From positions 1-35,251 of the forward strand of contig CACZSH010000046.1 in assembly GCA_902783785.1 (NCBI GenBank): a stretch of DNA of 35,251 bases, read 5' to 3'. Shown in pieces: positions 3,209 to 31,468 of this stretch (its first letter is position 1; the number at the start of each line of letters is the position of its first letter). The notes beneath the pieces are model-generated. The model was not told the origin of the DNA, ran no database searches, and saw only the letters and a list, made by a program, of their open reading frames with translations. Source of the DNA: an uncultured bacterium (GTDB taxonomy: Bacteria; Cyanobacteriota; Vampirovibrionia; Gastranaerophilales; Gastranaerophilaceae). The position numbers and the translations under genes were made by a program.

Positions 3209-3892
3209 TTAAACCAAGCCTTCTTTCATAGCTAAATTAATTGCTTTTGTTCTATTTTCAGTACATAATTTTTGCAAAATACTATGTACGTGTGCTTTTG
3301 CTGTTGCGTATGATATTACAAGTTCATCAGAAATTTCTTTATTTGATAAACCATTTACAATAAGTGCTAAAACTTCCAATTCTCGTTCTGTTAAGCCATA
3401 TGTTTGTTTAGCGCTATTATTATTGTTCAATCTTGATTCTTCTGTTTTTATTGAATAAGGAATTCTATTTCTTTGAATATTAGATAAAACTATTCTTGCA
3501 ATATTTGGATCAATCCATGCTGTTCCTTGTGATACTGCTTTAATAGCCGTCACAGTTTGTTCTCTTGTTGCGCCTTTCATTATGTACCCATCTGCTCCTG
3601 ATTCAAATGCAGATAAGACATCATCCTCATTATCTCTTGATGTGTACATTAAAATTTTTATTTCAGGATTGTAGTTTTTTATTATTTTTGTAGCTTCTAT
3701 TCCGTCTATTTCGGGTAAGCCAATATCCATTAAAATTATATCAGGATTTAGTAATTTTGCTTTATTTATTCCTGATATACCGTCTTCAGCTGTATCAATA
3801 AGTTCAATTCCTTCTACTCTTTCTATTACTAAAGACAAAGCAAGTCTTGTCATTTCATGGTCTTCTACCATCAAAACTTTAATATTAGCCAT
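3209..3892 (-). CDS. NarL/FixJ-family response regulator
   Basis: 227 residues. The N-terminal receiver domain (1-120) has the acidic pair E10/D11, phospho-acceptor D56 in the context ILMDIGLPE, the T/S switch in LMYTSR and a conserved lysine in GYIMKG. The C-terminal GerE/LuxR helix-turn-helix (about 163-225) begins LTERELEVLALIVNGLSNKE. It should bind DNA as a dimer once phosphorylated. The start codon overlaps the end of the upstream kinase gene by 8 bp, indicating translational coupling and a cognate pair. A linker of about 45 residues containing NNNN separates the domains. Targets are unknown. Confidence 0.9.
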   Translation of the reverse strand: MANIKVLMVEDHEMTRLALSLVIERVEGIELIDTAEDGISGINKAKLLNPDIILMDIGLPEIDGIEATKIIKNYNPEIKILMYTSRDNEDDVLSAFESGADGYIMKGATREQTVTAIKAVSQGTAWIDPNIARIVLSNIQRNRIPYSIKTEESRLNNNNSAKQTYGLTERELEVLALIVNGLSNKEISDELVISYATAKAHVHSILQKLCTENRTKAINLAMKEGLV

Positions 3893-21016: not shown

Positions 21017-21048
21017 GTACGTATTTTTACGTACGTAATTTTACGTAA
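21017..21048. promoter_or_regulatory. Four TACGTA boxes upstream of the phage-like block
   Basis: TACGTA occurs at 21018, 21028, 21032 and 21042, so pairs are ten bases apart. They form an inverted repeat (21017-21023 with 21028-21034), a perfect 12-bp palindrome TTACGTACGTAA (21027-21038) and a TTACGTAA (21041-21048). They end about 36 bases upstream of a -10 hexamer, an activator-like position. Confidence 0.6.
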
Positions 21049-21084
21049 GTATTTTTGCGGACTTTTTTTATTTTGAAAATACGC

Positions 21085-21090
21085 TATACT
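21085..21090 (+). promoter_or_regulatory. Putative -10 element of the phage-like operon
   Basis: TATACT (five of six) with no recognisable -35 at the right distance, as expected for an activator-dependent promoter. The leader to the first gene would be about 180 bases. It holds a short imperfect hairpin around GGAGG (21126-21145) and a CGATATCG palindrome (21171-21178), and no gene. Confidence 0.4.
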
Positions 21091-21275
21091 AATATTGTTG
21101 AGTTCGAAATACTGATGAATACTTGGTAAAGGAGGCTTTCTACCGCTAGTTTTGTTTGCAAAATTTTAATCGATATCGTTTTAATTTGAAAATATATTAA
21201 ATGATTTAAGTTATTAATACGTGATAATAAAAATAGGAAGATATTTGATTAAAGATTTTACACGAAAGAGAAAAT

Positions 21276-21464
21276 ATGAAATTATCGAAAAGAGAAATTC
21301 GGATATTAGAACTGCTATGTGACGGGTATTCTGATAAAGAAATAGCAAAAAAATTAAAGAATTCTCCAAGAACAATACAAACTCATATTACAAGACTTGT
21401 TTTAAAATTGAATGCAAGAAATAGAACTGCGGCAGTAGCAATTTATCTTAGAAATATGCCATAG
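21276..21464 (+). CDS. Stand-alone LuxR/GerE-type DNA-binding protein
   Basis: 62 residues consisting only of a GerE helix-turn-helix: KLSKREIRILELLCDGYSDK, then the recognition part SPRTIQTHITRLVLKLNARN. No receiver or autoinducer domain is attached. It resembles the C-terminal domain of the host response regulator at 3209-3892. It is the first gene after the TACGTA boxes and lies 20 bp before the amidase, so it probably regulates the phage-like operon. An autoactivator is my preferred reading, while sigma-factor-like alternatives are less likely. GAAAGAG precedes the ATG. Confidence 0.82.
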   Translation: MKLSKREIRILELLCDGYSDKEIAKKLKNSPRTIQTHITRLVLKLNARNRTAAVAIYLRNMP

Positions 21465-21484: not shown

Positions 21485-21991
21485 ATGAAACGTATTATAT
21501 TGCATTGGACTGCGGGTGGGCCTGTACCTAATTCGCATGAATTGGAGTGCTATCATTTTTTGATAGATTCTTTGGGTAATGTTAAACACGGTAAATTTAA
21601 ACCGGAAGCAAATTTGAATTGCAGAGAAGGTATGTATGCAGCACACACAGGTGGTGGTAATACCGGTTCAATAGGGGTTGCTTTATGCGGAATGTTAAAC
21701 TTTAAAGATAAGCATAGAATTGGTAGTTGTCCTATAACAAGAGTTCAGTTTGAGTCTGCAATGAAATTATGTGCAGAATTATCTTTAAAATATCAAATTC
21801 CGGTTAAAAGTACAAATATTATGACTCACTATGAGTTTGGGAAAATCCATCCTTCATCAACGAGCAGAGGAAAAATTGATATTACGTTTTTACCTCCGTT
21901 TTCTTGGCTTGAAAAAGATGAAATAGGTAAATTTATACGTTCAAAAATTAAATGGTATATATATCAAATACAAAATCAGGGAGTAAATTAA
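21485..21991 (+). CDS. N-acetylmuramoyl-L-alanine amidase (Amidase_2 endolysin)
   Basis: 168 residues. A zinc hydrolase that cuts the amide between muramic acid and the stem peptide. Predicted zinc ligands are H7 (ILHWTAGG), H115 (MTHYEFG) and D132 in RGKIDI, with K130 as the catalytic lysine, and AAHTGGGNTGSIGVAL is the family core. There is no signal peptide, so release would need a holin; a holin-like protein is encoded downstream. No cell-wall-binding domain follows the catalytic domain. AAGGGG precedes the ATG, and the stop TAA overlaps the ATG of the next gene (TAATG). Confidence 0.9.
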   Translation: MKRIILHWTAGGPVPNSHELECYHFLIDSLGNVKHGKFKPEANLNCREGMYAAHTGGGNTGSIGVALCGMLNFKDKHRIGSCPITRVQFESAMKLCAELSLKYQIPVKSTNIMTHYEFGKIHPSSTSRGKIDITFLPPFSWLEKDEIGKFIRSKIKWYIYQIQNQGVN

Positions 21992-23542: not shown

Positions 23543-24520
23543 ATGACAGAACAAACAAATGCTTATTCAGCTTTTATTCCGGAAATTTGGAGTCAAAAAT
23601 TAAACACATTGCTTGAAAAGAACTGTGTTATGCTTCAATGCGTAAACCGAAATTATGAGGGTGAAATTAAGAATCAAGGTGATAAAGTAAAAATTATTTC
23701 ACCTGCTGATGTAACGATTTCTACTTTAGGGACTGATAGTTTATCTTATAGTGAACTTTCTCCTTCTTCTCAAGATTTAGTAATTGACCAAAAAAAATAT
23801 TTTGCATTCAAAATTAATGATGTTGCTCAGGCGCAAGCAAATACTTCAATAATGGATGCACATTTAGAAAAAGCTAAAAAAGCTATTGAAGAAGTACAAG
23901 ATTCTTATCTTTTAGGTATGCATGCAAATGTTGCAGAAGGTAATATTGTAGGAAGTGATGCATCGCCAGTTGCCTTAAATAAATCAACTATTTATTCTTA
24001 CTTCGTTGAACTTGCTTTAGCTCTAAAAAATTCTGACGCCGTTTCAGGAAACAAGAAGCCTTGGGTTGTTATAAATCCGGTTATTGAATCTTATTTATTA
24101 CAATCAACAGAATTTATCGGAGCTCATAATGTTGCTGATGAAACATTGAGAGAAGGTTCAATTGGTAGAATTGCAGGCATGGATGTTCTTGTAAGTACAA
24201 ATTTAACAGCTACATCAGGTAAATTCTACGTTCTTGCTGGTACTAATGATGCAATTACGTTTGCTTCTCAATTGGCAAAAATAGAAAGTTTAAGAGATAA
24301 AGATTCATTCTCAGATTTGGTAAGAGGTTTGTATTTATATGGCGCAAAAACTGTTGTTCCAAATGCTTTGGCAAAAATGGTTGTTGCTGATCCAAGCTAT
24401 GTTGCACCTGTTACTAATACTGAAAGTGAAAATGGAGGTGATGGCACAACTACCGAAGGTAATACTCAAACTGAAGGCAATGGTACTACTGAAGGTGGTG
24501 AAACTACCGGTAACGGCTAA
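23543..24520 (+). CDS. Phage major capsid protein (P22-coat/HK97-fold type)
   Basis: 325 residues. IPEIWSQKLNTLLEKNCVML, then NRNYEGEIKNQGDKVKI, the helix LEKAKKAIEEVQDSYLLGMH and GSIGRIAGMDVLVSTNL are typical of coat proteins of podoviruses and some Firmicutes phages. The last 34 residues (292-325) are a low-complexity tail built of Thr, Glu, Gly and Asn (TTEGNTQTEGNG and similar), absent from ordinary coat proteins and probably exposed. AAAGG lies ahead of the ATG. It is followed by the holin-like gene and the scaffold. Confidence 0.85.
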   Translation: MTEQTNAYSAFIPEIWSQKLNTLLEKNCVMLQCVNRNYEGEIKNQGDKVKIISPADVTISTLGTDSLSYSELSPSSQDLVIDQKKYFAFKINDVAQAQANTSIMDAHLEKAKKAIEEVQDSYLLGMHANVAEGNIVGSDASPVALNKSTIYSYFVELALALKNSDAVSGNKKPWVVINPVIESYLLQSTEFIGAHNVADETLREGSIGRIAGMDVLVSTNLTATSGKFYVLAGTNDAITFASQLAKIESLRDKDSFSDLVRGLYLYGAKTVVPNALAKMVVADPSYVAPVTNTESENGGDGTTTEGNTQTEGNGTTEGGETTGNG

Positions 24521-24542
24521 GTTTTAAGTGAGGTTTAAATTT

Positions 24543-24791
24543 ATGTTTAAAACAATTAAGGAAACAATAAAAGAAACAGCATATTCAGCTGTGAAAATGG
24601 CAGAACTTGAATTAAGTTCCGCAACGGGAAAAGAAAAAAAAGAAAAAGCAGTAGAATTTGTAGTATCCAGAATACCTGTTGCGCAACCATTTAAGTCAAT
24701 AATTGTGATTTTGTTATCAAAATTTATTGATAAAGCTATAGAACAAGCTGTTACATATATGAAAACTGTTCAATATGAACAAGAAAGGTAA
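24543..24791 (+). CDS. Small holin-like protein (LLH-type C-terminal region)
   Basis: 82 residues. An amphipathic N-terminal helix (KTIKETIKETAYSAVKMAEL), the pattern SSATGKEKKEKAVEFV that recurs in LLH-type phage holins, then a hydrophobic stretch (PFKSIIVILLSKFIDKAIEQ). A full N-terminal transmembrane helix is missing, so membrane permeabilisation is uncertain; it may instead be a small accessory head protein. The ATG at 24543 is preferred over GTG 24528, since GAGG lies nine bases ahead. It sits unusually between coat and scaffold genes. Confidence 0.5.
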   Translation: MFKTIKETIKETAYSAVKMAELELSSATGKEKKEKAVEFVVSRIPVAQPFKSIIVILLSKFIDKAIEQAVTYMKTVQYEQER

Positions 24792-24794
24792 TTT

Positions 24795-25547
24795 ATGTTA
24801 AATAATCCAAACGATGAGTTTGTTAATTCTATGGGAGAAATAGAAGTATCACAAGACAAAACTCTTGCTGAAGATGATAATAAAGAAAATGCCAATCTCA
24901 AATATAATAACAAAGAGGAAAATCTAAAAGTTAAAGATAAGGCTTTTCACCAAATTGCACAAAAAATTCAAGAAATAGAGCGTCAAGCAAAGGAAGATGT
25001 TTCAAAAGTTGAAAATCTTTTAAATTCGGGGATTTTAAATCCAAAACTAGGGGAAAGTTTAATTCAACAAATAATAAAAAAGGGCTACGCTGAGTTACAA
25101 CAATGTGATTTAAACCCTGAAAATTTAATTAAGGAGTCAACGGATAAGAATTTAAAGCAATTTGATAAAGCGCAAGCTATTATTGAGTTTGAGAAAGAAA
25201 ACCCTGATTTCTTTAATCAAGACGGTCGTTTAGATGTTTTAAATTACATAAAATCAGGAATCCTTGAATTTGATAAACAAGAACTTGAAACTATATCAAC
25301 TCTTGTTGAAAAAATTGAGAAATCAGCAGTGGAAAGATATATAAAGCAAGTTGAATACGAAGCAAAACTTAGACAGACAAATGATGAAGCAAAGAGTAGA
25401 CTTTCTGCTAACGCACAAAATGCGAAAGATACGTCTAATAAGCAAATTGCTTTTACAAGAGATCAAATAGGGAAAATGTCATCTTCAGAATTTATTAGAA
25501 ACGAAAAACTTATAATGGAACAAGTAAAACAAGGTTTAATTCGTTAA
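24795..25547 (+). CDS. Capsid scaffolding protein
   Basis: 250 residues, highly charged, mostly helical with long coiled-coil stretches. An acidic N-terminus (EVSQDKTLAEDDNKE) and a basic C-terminal helix-turn-helix (AFTRDQIGKMSSSEFIRNEK, then QVKQGLI) are the features by which P22-type scaffolds bind coat protein. It would guide procapsid assembly and leave or be degraded before packaging. It follows the holin-like gene by 3 bp, with AAAGG as ribosome site. In P22 the scaffold precedes the coat gene; here it follows. Confidence 0.72.
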   Translation: MLNNPNDEFVNSMGEIEVSQDKTLAEDDNKENANLKYNNKEENLKVKDKAFHQIAQKIQEIERQAKEDVSKVENLLNSGILNPKLGESLIQQIIKKGYAELQQCDLNPENLIKESTDKNLKQFDKAQAIIEFEKENPDFFNQDGRLDVLNYIKSGILEFDKQELETISTLVEKIEKSAVERYIKQVEYEAKLRQTNDEAKSRLSANAQNAKDTSNKQIAFTRDQIGKMSSSEFIRNEKLIMEQVKQGLIR

Positions 25548-25598: not shown

Positions 25599-25628
25599 TG
25601 AGGTGAGCTGTTGTTAGAAAGGGTTAAT

Positions 25629-26270
25629 ATGCAATATTTTGATTTAATTAATAAATGCTTAGTGGAACTAAATTATAAAAAAGTTAATGATTTTAGAGAA
25701 TTAATAAAGAATGATCATCTCAAAATAAAAAATATTTTAAATATAGTTAATGCAGAAATTTGTACTTCTGATGATTGGAATTTTTTATTACGAAAGGAAA
25801 ATTTAGAATTTCCTGCAAATACAAGCGAAATAAAAAATACTATTAACGGAAGAATAAAAACTCTATCAATTGATGATTCTATCTATCAGTTTAGTGATGA
25901 TTGTGAAAAATTTTTGTTTGACAGAACAAAAGACAAAAAATATTCTATTTTGAACGATATGTTATTATTACCTGTTTTTGATACTCAAAAAACAATAAAT
26001 ATTGTGTATTACACAAATAATTTTGTTAAATCATCAAGTGGTAATGACAAATTGCAAATGACGCTTTCTGATGATGAAACAGTTATTCCGGATCCGTTTG
26101 CAGAACCATTATTAATATACGGAACGTGCATGAAAATGAAAGCAAATTTGGAATACCCTAAATTTAATTATTGGAATGCTATGTACAATAAAGCATTGGC
26201 TAATTTACGTTCAAAATTATTAACTTCATCTTCTCAAATCCCGATGATTAAGCTAAGAGGTGAATTTTAA
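25629..26270 (+). CDS. Podoviral head-tail adaptor protein (gp4/gp11-like)
   Basis: 213 residues. MQYFDLINKCLVELNYKKVN, LEFPANTSEIKNTINGRIKT, VYYTNNFVKSSSGN and the end EPLLIYGTCMKMKANLEYPK are the running motifs of podoviral connector/adaptor proteins that dock below the portal ring. The start at 25629 follows AAAGGG; the open frame extends to TTG 25611, but that lacks a ribosome site. After it comes 127 bp with a hairpin and no gene. Confidence 0.7.
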   Translation: MQYFDLINKCLVELNYKKVNDFRELIKNDHLKIKNILNIVNAEICTSDDWNFLLRKENLEFPANTSEIKNTINGRIKTLSIDDSIYQFSDDCEKFLFDRTKDKKYSILNDMLLLPVFDTQKTINIVYYTNNFVKSSSGNDKLQMTLSDDETVIPDPFAEPLLIYGTCMKMKANLEYPKFNYWNAMYNKALANLRSKLLTSSSQIPMIKLRGEF

Positions 26271-26397: not shown

Positions 26398-26826
26398 ATG
26401 AATTTATCACAACAACAAAAAATATTTATAACCGAATATATAAAAACTTTAGATGCTGAAGCTGCCTTAAAAAAAGCGGGATATAAACAAAAAAATCTAA
26501 AAACTTTGGCTAATAAGCTATTAAATAATAAAAAAATAATTGAACAGATACGACTGCAGTTAAAATCTCAAATAGAATCACTGAGAGTTCATAAGGGATA
26601 TGTAATTCAGAAATTACTTCAAATAGCAGAATTTTCTTTGCAAGAAGAAGATATTTTAGACAAAGAAGGAATTCCGACAGGAAAGAAAAAACTAAGAGAT
26701 ACCTCTGCAGCTCTTAAAGCTTTAGAAAGTCTTTGTAAATATTTGGGATTTAATTCAAAAGATATTCAAGAAGGGTTTTCAACAAAAATTATTACTATAA
26801 GTAATCTAGATGATGAAAAAATTTAA
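26398..26826 (+). CDS. terS: Terminase small subunit
   Basis: 142 residues. An N-terminal helix-turn-helix (QQQKIFITEYIKTLDAEAAL, then KKAGY) as in Terminase_2-type small subunits, an oligomerisation helix in the middle (QLKSQIESLRVHKGYVIQKL), and a C-terminal part ending ITISNLDDEKI that would touch TerL. It recognises the packaging start site on concatemeric DNA. There is no strong ribosome site (weak AAGAAAAC). TerS and TerL are separated by four genes, unlike the usual adjacency. Confidence 0.75.
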   Translation: MNLSQQQKIFITEYIKTLDAEAALKKAGYKQKNLKTLANKLLNNKKIIEQIRLQLKSQIESLRVHKGYVIQKLLQIAEFSLQEEDILDKEGIPTGKKKLRDTSAALKALESLCKYLGFNSKDIQEGFSTKIITISNLDDEKI

Positions 26827-26837
26827 AGGAGAAATGA

Positions 26838-27194
26838 ATGAAAAAAACGGATAATTTAAAAGAAGAAGTTCTATTAAAAAACAAATCTATAGATGAATTA
26901 ATACGAATAAAAATGCAGGAAGAATTAAAAAATGCATTTAACAAACGAGTAGGAAAACAACCTAAAGTAATAATAAAAAATATCAAAGACGTTCCTGTTG
27001 ATAAAATTTTTACTAAAAAAACTGTATTTAAAGTTTTTAATAGGGATACTCAAGTGGAAACATTAATAAACGGAATTCAGGCAGAAGCTTTAATTGGAAT
27101 GCAAAATGACGTCAGAGAAAAATTTAAACGAAAAGAAACAGATATCTTTTCTACGGATACTCTTTTTGTTAAATTTGAAAGCTTTGAACTTTAG
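26838..27194 (+). CDS. Unknown protein in the phage-like block
   Basis: 118 residues, lysine-rich, no membrane segment. It begins with a charged helix and has VIIKNIKDVPVDKIFTKKT in the middle. I recognise no family. AAAGGAG precedes the ATG, and it follows TerS by 11 bp, so it is translated from the same message. It ends 3 bp from the stop of the convergent membrane gene. An accessory head or packaging protein is a guess. Confidence 0.65.
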   Translation: MKKTDNLKEEVLLKNKSIDELIRIKMQEELKNAFNKRVGKQPKVIIKNIKDVPVDKIFTKKTVFKVFNRDTQVETLINGIQAEALIGMQNDVREKFKRKETDIFSTDTLFVKFESFEL

Positions 27195-27197
27195 CGT

Positions 27198-27650
27198 TTA
27201 AATGAACACAGGAATTGTTGTGGCAAGTAATAAAGAAAGAAAAAGCAATAGAGATATAACTGCAAAAACTTTTTGTATATCTGCAAAATAAAAATGTTGT
27301 CTTCTTCTTTTTGAGTTTCTTATTGCAGTAAATTCCATAGTGTATGGTTGAACAGGGAGTTGTTTTTCAATTTCTTCAATAGCTTTAGATATTTTAATTT
27401 TAATCAAAAAATTGTATGCATCGATATTCAGCCACCACAACATGCTGATAAGGATTCCTATGAGAGAAAAAATTGCGCTTGCTGAAAATATTTTGCAAAT
27501 AACAAAATCTTTCATAAGAAATATTAAAACGAAAAGAGCAACTACAACTACTGTGTAAAATTTGTTAGTCATAAAGCTTCTGTCAACAAAGTTATCTTTA
27601 TGTTCTGAGTAGGTTTTGTATTGCTTAATGATTAAGTCTTCAGAATTCAT
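27198..27650 (-). CDS. RipA/8xMP-like octameric membrane protein
   Basis: 150 residues with four probable membrane helices in two pairs (KFYTVVVVALFVLIFLMKDF, IFSASAIFSLIGILISMLWW, and IQKVFAVISLLLFLSLLLA at the end). YKTYSEHKDNFVDRSFMTNKFY, ISMLWWLNIDAYNFLIKIKI and AIEEIEKQLPVQPYTMEF match the RipA-type (8xMP) family, known from Francisella and from mobile elements. Small membrane proteins of this sort (compare SLATT) are suspected effectors in phage defence, which is inference here. It is the only gene opposed to the operon and has a consensus promoter and an AGGAG ribosome site, hallmarks of a prophage moron. Confidence 0.7.
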   Translation of the reverse strand: MNSEDLIIKQYKTYSEHKDNFVDRSFMTNKFYTVVVVALFVLIFLMKDFVICKIFSASAIFSLIGILISMLWWLNIDAYNFLIKIKISKAIEEIEKQLPVQPYTMEFTAIRNSKRRRQHFYFADIQKVFAVISLLLFLSLLLATTIPVFI

Positions 27651-27705: not shown

Positions 27706-28239
27706 ATGATTAAGTTTGCAAAAGTAATAATTAACAGAAATTTAAATGAATACAGAAATCTTCATTTTTTACCTGATATTTTTAAACTTCTAGTTAAATA
27801 TGAAAGATTTATGTTTGATGATTATTTTGCAGAAGAGGATTTATCAAAAGCTTTGTTTAAATTAATAGAAAATTCAGGACGATTCTTTTGGGTGATTTTG
27901 GATGGTGAGTCGAATGATTTTATGGGTTTTGCATATTTTGATAAATTCGTCGGATGTGAAAATAAAATTCATTCGGCGGAACTAAATACCTGTTTTTGCC
28001 GCAAATATTGGGGATATCCTGTGAGAGAAGCTGGTAGAAAATTTATTAAATTTAGTTTTAAAAAATATAATTTTCAGAAGATTAAAGCTTTAGTTTTTAA
28101 AGAAAATGTAGCTGTGAAAGGCTTATTAAGGACTTTAGGGTTTAAAAAAGAAGCCTGTTTAAAGGGAGAAACCTTAAAAAATAACAGGCTTCAAGATGTA
28201 GAAATATATTCAATTTTAAGGAGAGAAAAATGCAAGTAG
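27706..28239 (+). CDS. GNAT-family acetyltransferase in the phage-like block
   Basis: 177 residues. GNAT fold: MGFAYFDKF (beta-4), the CoA-binding region CRKYWGYPVREAGRKFIKFS, and RTLGFKKEACLKGETLKNN near the end as in RimJ/RimL-type enzymes. It would transfer acetyl from acetyl-CoA to an amine; the target is unknown. GNATs are found beside portal genes in several podoviruses, where they may modify host or virion proteins. Its end overlaps the portal start by 10 bases. A tiny frame (ATG 27696 to TAA 27713, five codons) with a good AAAGGA overlaps its ATG and may couple its translation. Confidence 0.75.
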   Translation: MIKFAKVIINRNLNEYRNLHFLPDIFKLLVKYERFMFDDYFAEEDLSKALFKLIENSGRFFWVILDGESNDFMGFAYFDKFVGCENKIHSAELNTCFCRKYWGYPVREAGRKFIKFSFKKYNFQKIKALVFKENVAVKGLLRTLGFKKEACLKGETLKNNRLQDVEIYSILRREKCK

Positions 28240-29879
28240 AAAAAATCGATTTAACAGCGCAAACAGATGATAAAGAAAATATTTATCTGGTAAAACAAAT
28301 TTCTAATATGTACGATGAATTTGAATCTGCAAGATCGTTACAATTATCAGATATAAGAATTGTCAGAGATGCTATATATTCAAAAAAACTTCCAAATGTG
28401 AATGATTGGAATACAAAGTTGGATTTGCCTGAAATATATGAACTTGCTCAAACGTTGAAAGCTCATATTAGTGAAAATTTATACTCTCATGCAGAGGGAA
28501 TGTTTGATGTTTCTGGTGTGACCCCTGAAACACAAATGCTTGCAAATAAACAAAAGGCAATGTTGGTAAATACGTTTGAACAAATGAATATAGAAAATGA
28601 GATTGAAAAAGTAATAGATTCTATTGTTGAAACTGGTGAGTGTACTCTTTTTGTTGGCTGGGAAACTCGATTAAAAAATATACGTCGAGCTAAAACAATA
28701 GAGGAAGAAATAATTTCTTTTGATAATAATAGCTTTGTTGTTGAAAATAAGATTGTTTACGACAATGCAAAAGTGAAACATATAAAATCTGAAGATTTTG
28801 TATTTGATGTTCAAAATAAAGATAATTGGGATAATTGTGCAAAAATTTATCGTACGTATTCAACTCTTGATGAAATAAAAAATAATACCTTAAATAATTA
28901 TTTAACAAAAGAAAAATTTGATAATTTAAAACAAATTTTGACTAATAAAAAATCAAAAGATACAGATAAAAGGGTTAATGGAAATAAACTTGAAATTCTT
29001 GAATTCTGGGGAGATATAGAATTAGAAAACGGAGAAATTCTTAAAAATTGGTTAGTCGTTGTTGCGGGACGCAAAGAGATAATTAGATTTGAAGCAAATC
29101 CTTTTGTTATAAATCCTTTTATACACGCAAATATAATTGAATCTCCCGCTACATTAAGGGGATTATCTCCATTAAGAGTAGCAATTATTCTAAGTAATAT
29201 TTCATCAACAATAATGAATAAACAATTAGATGCACTTTCTTTAATGATGAATCCTCCTTATCTTGCACCAAAAGGATGTTTTAAAGGTGAGCAAGAAGTA
29301 AAACCAGGTAAGATTATTGAATATGATTCAGCTTTAATGCCTCAAGCACCTATTCCGTTGAGTTTTGATAAAGCATTAAATGGTTGGGATTTCTTAAATT
29401 ATTTTAAAACGACAATAGAAAGTGCTACCGGTATATTTAAAAATATGGCTGGAAATATTCAATCTCAATCAAGAACGGCAACCGAAATAAATTATTCAGT
29501 AAGCGGACAATCCGCGAGATTAAATATGATGCTTGATGCTATAAGCAGAAAAATATTAATTCCAATGGTAGAAAAAACTGCAGAAATAATTGCAAATTTC
29601 AAAGTTGGAAAAGAAATAATTGGAATAAATGAAGGAGGTAGATATTTCTATATTGAAATAGATGATGCTGTAAGAGGCGCTCAATACATTTATCGATATG
29701 GTGATAGAAAAGCATCTATGGAAAGAAAATTGAGATTAAAAGAATTGTTTGAAGTTGTTAAATCTTTTGCAGAAGTTCCTTCATTGGCTCAACAAATAAA
29801 TTGGGTAGAATGCTTTAAATATGCATTGGAACAATATGGAATAGAAAATTCGAACAATTTTTTAACAATTGATGGATAG
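28230..29879 (+). CDS. Phage portal protein (podoviral type)
   Basis: 549 residues. A largely helical protein with the portal pattern: an N-terminal region with LDLPEIYELAQTLKAHISEN, a central beta region (VKHIKSEDFVFDVQNKDNW), ANIIESPATLRGLSPLRVAI, then the tunnel helix region with SQSRTATEINYSVSGQSARL. It forms the dodecameric ring at the capsid vertex through which DNA is packaged. AAGGAG precedes the ATG. It is directly upstream of TerL. Confidence 0.8.
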   Translation: MQVEKIDLTAQTDDKENIYLVKQISNMYDEFESARSLQLSDIRIVRDAIYSKKLPNVNDWNTKLDLPEIYELAQTLKAHISENLYSHAEGMFDVSGVTPETQMLANKQKAMLVNTFEQMNIENEIEKVIDSIVETGECTLFVGWETRLKNIRRAKTIEEEIISFDNNSFVVENKIVYDNAKVKHIKSEDFVFDVQNKDNWDNCAKIYRTYSTLDEIKNNTLNNYLTKEKFDNLKQILTNKKSKDTDKRVNGNKLEILEFWGDIELENGEILKNWLVVVAGRKEIIRFEANPFVINPFIHANIIESPATLRGLSPLRVAIILSNISSTIMNKQLDALSLMMNPPYLAPKGCFKGEQEVKPGKIIEYDSALMPQAPIPLSFDKALNGWDFLNYFKTTIESATGIFKNMAGNIQSQSRTATEINYSVSGQSARLNMMLDAISRKILIPMVEKTAEIIANFKVGKEIIGINEGGRYFYIEIDDAVRGAQYIYRYGDRKASMERKLRLKELFEVVKSFAEVPSLAQQINWVECFKYALEQYGIENSNNFLTIDG

Positions 29880-29922: not shown

Positions 29923-29935
29923 AAGGGTGGAGAAT

Positions 29936-31225
29936 ATGGGATACAAATTATTAAAATCTCAGCGGGAATTTTTAGAAATTCCTCATGATTACAGTATTGA
30001 TGTTGCAGTATATCAGGGTGGATTCGGTTCAGGTAAAACGTTTGCAGGTTCGTTACTTGGTATATTATTATGTTTAAAATTTGCAGGTATTAGAGGTCTT
30101 TGCGGAGCTCAAACTTATACTCTTGTTAGAGATACTACGCTTCAATCTTATTTTGAACATTTGGAAAATATGGGTTTTGTTTCAGGTATTGATTATGAAT
30201 GGTCAAGTTCTAATCAAAGTCTAAAATTTAAAAATGGTTCAGAGATATTGTTTAGACACTTTGATGAGCCGGATAAGCTAAAATCTTTAAACTTAGGATT
30301 TGTAGAAATTGAAGAAATGTCAGATGTCCCTTTTTCTACATTTAAGATGCTTCTTGCAAGATTAAGACAAACTAAAAAGAGGGATTGGAAAAATTTTCAG
30401 TATCGAATATTTGGTCATACAAATCCTGAATTAAATAAAGGCTGGGTTTATAAAACCTTTATAGAAAATCCAATGCCGAATTATCGTTTAATTTCAGCTC
30501 CTACTCATCAAAATATTTATTTACCTGAAGGATTTTGTGATGAACTTAAAAAATTATATGACGAAAAATATTATAATATATACGTTTTAGCACAAACAGG
30601 AGATTATGATTCAGGGCTTGTTGTAAAAGGTTTTAGCGATGATAATGTAAGAGAAATTATCTATCAGTCGGATTTAGATGTTCATATCACTTGTGATTTT
30701 AATGTTGATCCTATGAGTTGGATTCTTGCTCACAAAACAGAGGATAAAGTTTTTTTCTTTGATGAAATTGTAATGGAAAACACTACAACAGAAAGAGCTT
30801 GTGAGGAATTTGTAAGTAGATACCCTAATCATAAAAGCAAAATTATAATAAACGGTGATGCATCAGGTGATAACAGAAGTTGTACGAGTGAATTTACTAA
30901 TTACGTTATTATGAAAAAAACATTAGCGAAATTTGGTTATGAAACAGAGGTTAAAATAAGAGCATTTAATCCTCCTATCAAAAATCGGGTTGCCGCTTTT
31001 AATTCAAAGGTCCGTTCAACAGATGGTAAAGTTAGTATTTTTGTAGATAAAAAATGTAAAAAACTTTTATATAATATTTACAATTTAAAATATCAGGAAG
31101 GTTCATCCAGAATTGATATTCCGTCATTTCAGCAGATAAAAAGTGCAAAAGAATTAAAATTTTTAATGCATCCCTTTGATGCTGCATCTTACCTTGTTGA
31201 ATATTATTGGCCTATTACGTTATAA
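29936..31225 (+). CDS. terL: Terminase large subunit
   Basis: 429 residues; ATP-driven DNA packaging motor with nuclease. Walker A GGFGSGKT (28-35), Walker B FVEIEEMSD, coupling region FGHTNPE, then the RNase H-like nuclease with acidic residues in HITCDFNVDP, IINGDASGD and HPFDAASYLVEYY. All catalytic positions appear intact. The start at ATG 29936 fits the GTGGAG ribosome site; GTG 29927 is also in frame. The last 76-residue gene follows by 12 bp. Headful or cos packaging cannot be told from the sequence alone. Confidence 0.9.
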   Translation: MGYKLLKSQREFLEIPHDYSIDVAVYQGGFGSGKTFAGSLLGILLCLKFAGIRGLCGAQTYTLVRDTTLQSYFEHLENMGFVSGIDYEWSSSNQSLKFKNGSEILFRHFDEPDKLKSLNLGFVEIEEMSDVPFSTFKMLLARLRQTKKRDWKNFQYRIFGHTNPELNKGWVYKTFIENPMPNYRLISAPTHQNIYLPEGFCDELKKLYDEKYYNIYVLAQTGDYDSGLVVKGFSDDNVREIIYQSDLDVHITCDFNVDPMSWILAHKTEDKVFFFDEIVMENTTTERACEEFVSRYPNHKSKIIINGDASGDNRSCTSEFTNYVIMKKTLAKFGYETEVKIRAFNPPIKNRVAAFNSKVRSTDGKVSIFVDKKCKKLLYNIYNLKYQEGSSRIDIPSFQQIKSAKELKFLMHPFDAASYLVEYYWPITL

Positions 31226-31237
31226 AAAGGAGAAGAC

Positions 31238-31468
31238 ATGGAAACATTTGTTCAATATGCCCCGTTAATAGTTGTTATAATGGTATTTTTGATTCAGCAA
31301 AGAGTTGTAGTAACTCCGGAACAATTGGAGAAAAAACATAGAGAAATAATAGAAGACGTGGAAGAAAAATTTGCAACGTTAAATAGTGTAAAGGACTTAA
31401 AAGAGCAAGTATTTGAGATGAAGGAAAAAATTGACAGAATTTATGAATGTATTATTGCGGTTAAGTAA
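31238..31468 (+). CDS. Small single-helix membrane protein (holin/spanin-like)
   Basis: 76 residues: an N-terminal membrane helix (YAPLIVVIMVFLIQQ), then a charged coiled coil (EQLEKKHREIIEDVEEKFAT, ending DRIYECII). This shape is common in small phage lysis or virion-associated proteins at the end of a late operon. AAGGAG precedes the ATG. No family was assigned with confidence. The promoter of the next gene lies in its last codons. Confidence 0.6.
   Translation: METFVQYAPLIVVIMVFLIQQRVVVTPEQLEKKHREIIEDVEEKFATLNSVKDLKEQVFEMKEKIDRIYECIIAVK

Follow-up and report, generated by a model that had tools for sequence, protein, structure and literature searches.

A candidate GerE-bound operator array at the head of a gene-transfer-agent-like block in Gastranaerophilaceae

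The window analysed here is a 35,251-nt contig (CACZSH010000046.1, assembly GCA_902783785.1) from an uncultured bacterium of the Gastranaerophilaceae, and it carries a block of clustered phage-type head, packaging and lysis genes headed by the gene for a 62-amino-acid (aa) GerE protein. Upstream of this gene lies a cluster of TACGTA cores, which is best explained as a whole, and in our judgement likely, as a set of operators at a promoter (P1), with the last half-site replacing the −35 element. The 62-aa protein probably binds this array, since across genera the operator core and the recognition helix of the protein change together. The same promoter pattern precedes toxin-like genes elsewhere, many of which share a C-terminal motif with the scaffold-like protein of the block.

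A probable operator array at promoter P1

TACGTA starts at 21018, 21028, 21032 and 21042, which confirms the original prediction, made from the letters of the window alone, that four cores lie inside 30 bp with two pairs spaced exactly 10 bp apart. The window holds nine TACGTA against 3.5 expected, a number that none of 100 shuffles reached, and first-order Markov simulations of the window (2000 runs) never placed more than two within 30 bp. The repeat unit is better described as a 12-bp palindrome, CGTA-N4-TACG, present in three copies, the third degenerate, with a period of 14 bp (Table 1). The predicted −10 box lacking a −35 element also held up: a sigma-70 scan at TATACT found no −35/−10 pair, and CGGACT, the last half-site, is separated from TATACT by 21 bp. 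An Rfam search of the window gave no match. The first gene downstream encodes, as foreseen, a bare GerE domain, consisting of the helix-turn-helix (HTH) only, without a receiver or autoinducer domain, and we classed it with the one-domain GerE proteins, apart from two-domain response regulators and quorum receptors.

P1 recurs at the equivalent place in other Gastranaerophilaceae (relatives with named records are Candidatus Gastranaerophilales), with a CGTA-type array ~220–760 bp upstream of GerE in 42 of the 79 block loci with enough sequence. These distant arrays refuted an early idea that TACGTA was a feature of the window's genus only, to which the absence of strict TACGTA near GerE in relatives had pointed. 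Of 23 aligned block copies of P1, no fewer than 22 have a −10 box starting 20–21 nt after CGGACT; the middle operator is conserved, and a −35 consensus is absent from the copies examined. A pattern search, the basis of all our genome-wide scans, found the full array just twice more in the window's own genome, both times on contig C60 (14536 and 16088). The array is not limited to the operon and also precedes toxin-like cassettes elsewhere.

Joint changes in operator core and recognition helix

The P1 core varies by genus (CGTA, CATG, TACT or GGGA), with the repeat geometry mostly kept, and each operator class has its own helix: RT[VI][QEH] for CGTA, [GAS]TVR for CATG, GTVH for TACT and KTIQ for GGGA. 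Operator class matched helix class in every one of the 67 rows of the tree set. A tree built from three other block genes gave five operator changes and four helix-class changes, among them a reversal from CATG to CGTA inside the CATG group. The changing residues fall in the recognition helix, the region of NarL K188. It is mainly because core and helix change together across genera that we accept the one-domain protein as the likely ligand of the array, and we regard their agreement as strong support but not proof. The host response regulator at 3209–3892 had also been proposed to feed into these sites; its recognition helix reads ATAKAHVHS against RTIQTHITR in the GerE protein, a difference that makes cross-talk at P1 unlikely and leaves that proposal unsupported.

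Proposed regulation by P1 and P2

The position of the array upstream of GerE without a −35 element fits dependence on an activator and, in the window's genus, positive feedback. On our reading, the 62-aa protein would bind the CGTA-N4-TACG array at P1 and probably activate it, so that in the window's genus GerE and the ~10-kb particle block that follows would be under positive feedback. In most relatives, P1 is followed by gene X, encoding a zinc-ribbon protein of ~120–165 aa with no family match, then by a hairpin terminator and by GerE with its own promoter, P2; gene X has been lost in the window's genus. P1 would therefore drive gene X in these relatives, with the separate, conserved P2 feeding GerE. 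Thus, positive feedback over the whole operon, as originally proposed, agrees with the array position in the window but not with the arrangement in most relatives, and it may be special to the window's genus.

The P2 family element is GGAAATATTATTAA, of which the window has a weak variant (Table 1). Its position weight matrix (PWM) score exceeded 10 in 72 of 82 loci, spread across all P1 operator classes, suggesting that P2, being unchanged across these classes, answers to another factor. Gene X follows the pattern MGYIHCCG...CPVCGH...YSNLSxLKIGL and lies ~80–640 bp upstream of GerE (loci L051–L134). The leader that separates P1 from gene X forms a structured RNA of three helices with 98.5% of cells paired (L070 7065–7139 and 35 other loci; alignment A4, model R1), and both-sided changes occur in 9 of its 11 pairs. 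An Rfam search of this leader gave no credible match, and the model has no match in the window. Genomes with this leader mostly hold one copy, at the block; genus g18 has extras before toxin operons.

Distal P1 sites and a motif shared with the scaffold-like protein

Across 191 genomes the P1 pattern gave ~75 matches against ~5 for a reversed control, counted on both strands, so that one site of this near-palindromic pattern may count twice. Of the distal P1 sites that were read, most stand before proteins that carry the scaffold motif or a linked DGT..YR module, and behind such sites lie DUF6973 proteins, a GH108 muramidase and lipase-like proteins. GerE would also turn on these P1 copies, so that particle and toxins would be made together. 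In genus g18, the lipase-like operons have the genus's own CATG/CACG-type operator together with the block's leader RNA, and the block locus with the matching leader RNA (L084) has the same operator type. One C60 site lies upstream of a DUF6973 protein (L005 15159–15866) and the other upstream of a chimeric or truncated second copy. This second effector (L005 16578–17267) has a DUF6973-like start followed by unrelated surface-protein sequence near the contig end, and is a misassembly or a broken gene. A match in another genome, GTCCGTAATATTATTACGGACT followed by TTTTTT (G006), was set aside because it looks like a plain terminator. Small membrane proteins adjoin many of the toxin-like genes and are possibly immunity proteins.

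A C-terminal profile built solely from the scaffold-like proteins of the block, searched against 13,664 open reading frames (ORFs), matched the C60 effector at 1.2e-9 and others at down to 1e-17. Two or more motif matches (scaffold and others) were present in 68 of 86 genomes with the block, and any match in 19 of 105 block-free genomes (Fisher p 8e-18). A PBECR1 nuclease carrying the motif was found beside a block, and the effectors scanned had no match to a MuF domain. We call the protein a putative scaffold for where its gene lies, for its predicted helical structure, which has a mini-domain at the C-terminus, and because phages D6E and phiSASD1 have an annotated scaffold gene adjoining the homologous capsid gene; in D6E the motif also matches weakly (0.0025 in a six-protein set). 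The motif matched MaAM05 at 7.5e-9. Neither fold searches with models of the scaffold and the effector nor a PDB sequence search gave a usable match. Loading of the toxins into the particle would follow from a scaffold-derived docking tag. Taken together, these observations suggest a domesticated particle co-expressed, through GerE and its co-evolving operator, with polymorphic toxins carried inside it, that is, a natural toxin-loaded and perhaps DNA-carrying capsid, a composite picture that we put forward tentatively and at somewhat less than even odds.

A conserved, probably vertically inherited block

Of 191 family genomes, 86 had a strong match to the head protein, in almost every case as a single copy, and gene order was invariant in all 48 loci of at least 20 kb: GerE, amidase, virion protein, head, (holin), scaffold-like, tail, small terminase subunit, 118-aa, GNAT, portal, (large terminase subunit, 76-aa). 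Compared with the nearest relative (L050), the ratio of nonsynonymous to synonymous divergence (dN/dS) of block genes was 0.02–0.29, indicating purifying selection, and their dS of 0.54–1.40 lay within the range of flanking genes (0.72–1.70). No integrase or replication genes were found among the window ORFs scanned. Invariant order, single copy, purifying selection and the lack of an integrase in the window fit a gene transfer agent (GTA). The block thus has the look of a phage derivative of this kind, domesticated and passed on vertically, and not of a temperate phage.

Weighing of alternative readings

The sequences themselves show the geometry and conservation of the array, the joint changes of operator and helix, the promoter and scaffold motif held in common with toxin-like genes, the collinearity and the purifying selection; binding, activation, feedback, production of particles and loading of toxins are inferred from these. 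Several points weigh against GerE acting at P1 as an activator. Eleven operator classes were assigned by eye, the genomes compared are mostly metagenome-assembled, and a test on independent pairs had only two to three starred pairs and cannot reach significance. One genome (G153) has a P1-like site with only a weak one-domain GerE, and another (G032) has such a site before a toxin-like gene yet no one-domain GerE; the doubt that G032 cast on the ligand was dropped given the agreement of helix and operator. The small number of independent changes and the G032 site would suit a host regulator other than GerE binding P1, with the helix correlation reflecting merely shared ancestry, but 67 agreeing rows, the reversal on the tree, the placing of the changes within the recognition helix and the different helix of the neighbouring host response regulator make this unlikely. 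GerE may also repress P1, as operators extending into the −35 region could block polymerase; this too we hold to be improbable, considering that the operators end before the −10 box and that a promoter with no −35 consensus in the copies examined should be weak unaided.

The array might instead serve the radical SAM gene as its intrinsic terminator, with an inverted repeat and a T run, as the one terminator-like hairpin that a scan found within it and the 6–7 T after GGACT in many block copies would suggest. Most distal copies have lost the T run and roughly kept the −10 spacing, statistics on which we rejected this reading, and with the middle operator conserved and the core changing together with the GerE helix it has very little likelihood left. 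As for the block, its phage-type genes throughout and the relatives of its capsid protein in real phages could speak for a prophage, either active in the usual way or decaying to a remnant; given the strong purifying selection, the invariant order, the nearly constant single copy and the lack of integrase or replication genes in the window, we find this reading distinctly improbable compared with a domesticated particle cluster.

Relation to known systems

RcGTA and the Caulobacter GTA are host-kept, vertically inherited capsid and packaging clusters with lysis genes, whose regulators couple particle genes with lysis (PMC9662315, PMC13236601). The block resembles them in these features of inheritance and content, whereas its portal (SU10 type), capsid and terminase resemble those of another phage lineage, it is headed by a one-domain GerE gene, and toxin-like cassettes share its promoter. 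In MuF polymorphic toxins of temperate phages, variable toxin domains are joined to a phage head-associated part (PMC5576092). Such joined domains, with candidate immunity genes, are found here as well, but what the toxins are joined to is the C-terminal motif of the scaffold instead of a MuF domain, and the cassettes are scattered outside the block under the block's promoter. One-domain NarL/LuxR regulators likewise have a bare GerE HTH and a NarL-like recognition helix, unlike which the present system has tandem 4-N4-4 operators with a 14-bp period and a core changing by genus. Candidate GTA operons of gut Faecalibacterium, for which packaging was measured, share with the block a ~10-kb particle operon in gut bacteria and separate lysis genes, but differ in phylum and genes (PMC12946183).

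No earlier report of a GTA-like element in non-photosynthetic gut Cyanobacteria was found in the literature searched. If the proposed picture is true, such an element exists in these bacteria, and one small regulator, its specificity switched several times, ties particle production to toxin-like genes. The specificity switches would provide naturally occurring cases for testing how GerE helices recognise DNA, and the scaffold-type toxin tag a simple, testable rule for cargo loading of phage capsids; to our knowledge, such a rule is otherwise known only from engineered systems.

Features of the window and minor observations

Table 1. Coordinates of P1, P2 and the genes of the particle block in the window
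Feature	Coordinates	Strand	Remarks
Operator 1, CGTA-TTTT-TACG (predicted)	21020..21031	.	also kept at P1 of relatives
Operator 2, CGTA-ATTT-TACG (predicted)	21034..21045	.	
Operator 3, degenerate AGTA-TTTT-TGCG (predicted)	21048..21059	.	runs into CGGACT; family pattern CGTANNNNTACNTANGTANNNNTRCGGACT
CGGACT, last half-site of the array, in place of −35 element	21058..21063	+	−10 spacing in P1 copies
P1 −10 box TATACT	21085..21090	+	
P2 element GAAAATATATTAAA	21188..21201	+	genus's weak variant of GGAAATATTATTAA; aligned by eye, PWM gives no score
Possible P2 −10 box GATAAT	21223..21228	+	inferred
One-domain GerE/LuxR-type regulator, 62 aa	21276..21464	+	Pfam GerE PF00196 9e-18; equivalent place in 48/48 loci of at least 20 kb
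Amidase_2 endolysin	21485..21991	+	
Virion structural protein, 514 aa	21952..23496	+	phrog_3287 8e-17
Major head (capsid) protein	23543..24520	+	phrog_267 3e-51; phage homologues 32–43% identical
Holin-like protein	24528..24791	+	phrog_6918 3e-8
Putative head scaffolding protein	24795..25547	+	C-terminal motif FTRDQIGKMSSSEFIRNEKLIMEQVKQGLIR
Tail protein	25611..26270	+	phrog_6013 6e-6
Terminase small subunit	26398..26826	+	Pfam Terminase_2 2.5e-14
Conserved 118-aa block protein	26838..27194	+	collinear in 48/48 loci
GNAT-like block protein	27706..28239	+	collinear in 48/48 loci
Portal protein, SU10 type	28230..29879	+	Pfam SU10_portal 1.3e-19
Terminase large subunit	29927..31225	+	phrog_2 1e-32
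Small membrane protein (76 aa), last conserved block gene	31238..31468	+	weak BhlA-holin match

Host genes flank the block: upstream a radical SAM gene, a flank common to 15 of the 48 loci, and downstream those for patatin and IF-1. Inside the block, on the opposite strand, lies a gene for an 8xMP membrane protein (27198–27650, − strand), present in only 3 of 48 relatives. Many IMG/VR "viral" contigs (L130–L160) are short pieces of the block with capsids 72–93% identical, and are probably chromosomal. A related head cluster (capsid 44%) also occurs in the "Microcystis jumbo phage" MaAM05/PhiMa05 (MW495066.1 204681–221496, L382), where it is flanked by pgcA, kimA, lepA and proS. This segment may have come from a Vampirovibrionia chromosome that carries a GTA-like block, in which case the ribosomal protein genes of MaAM05 (PMC13157829) would be read differently.
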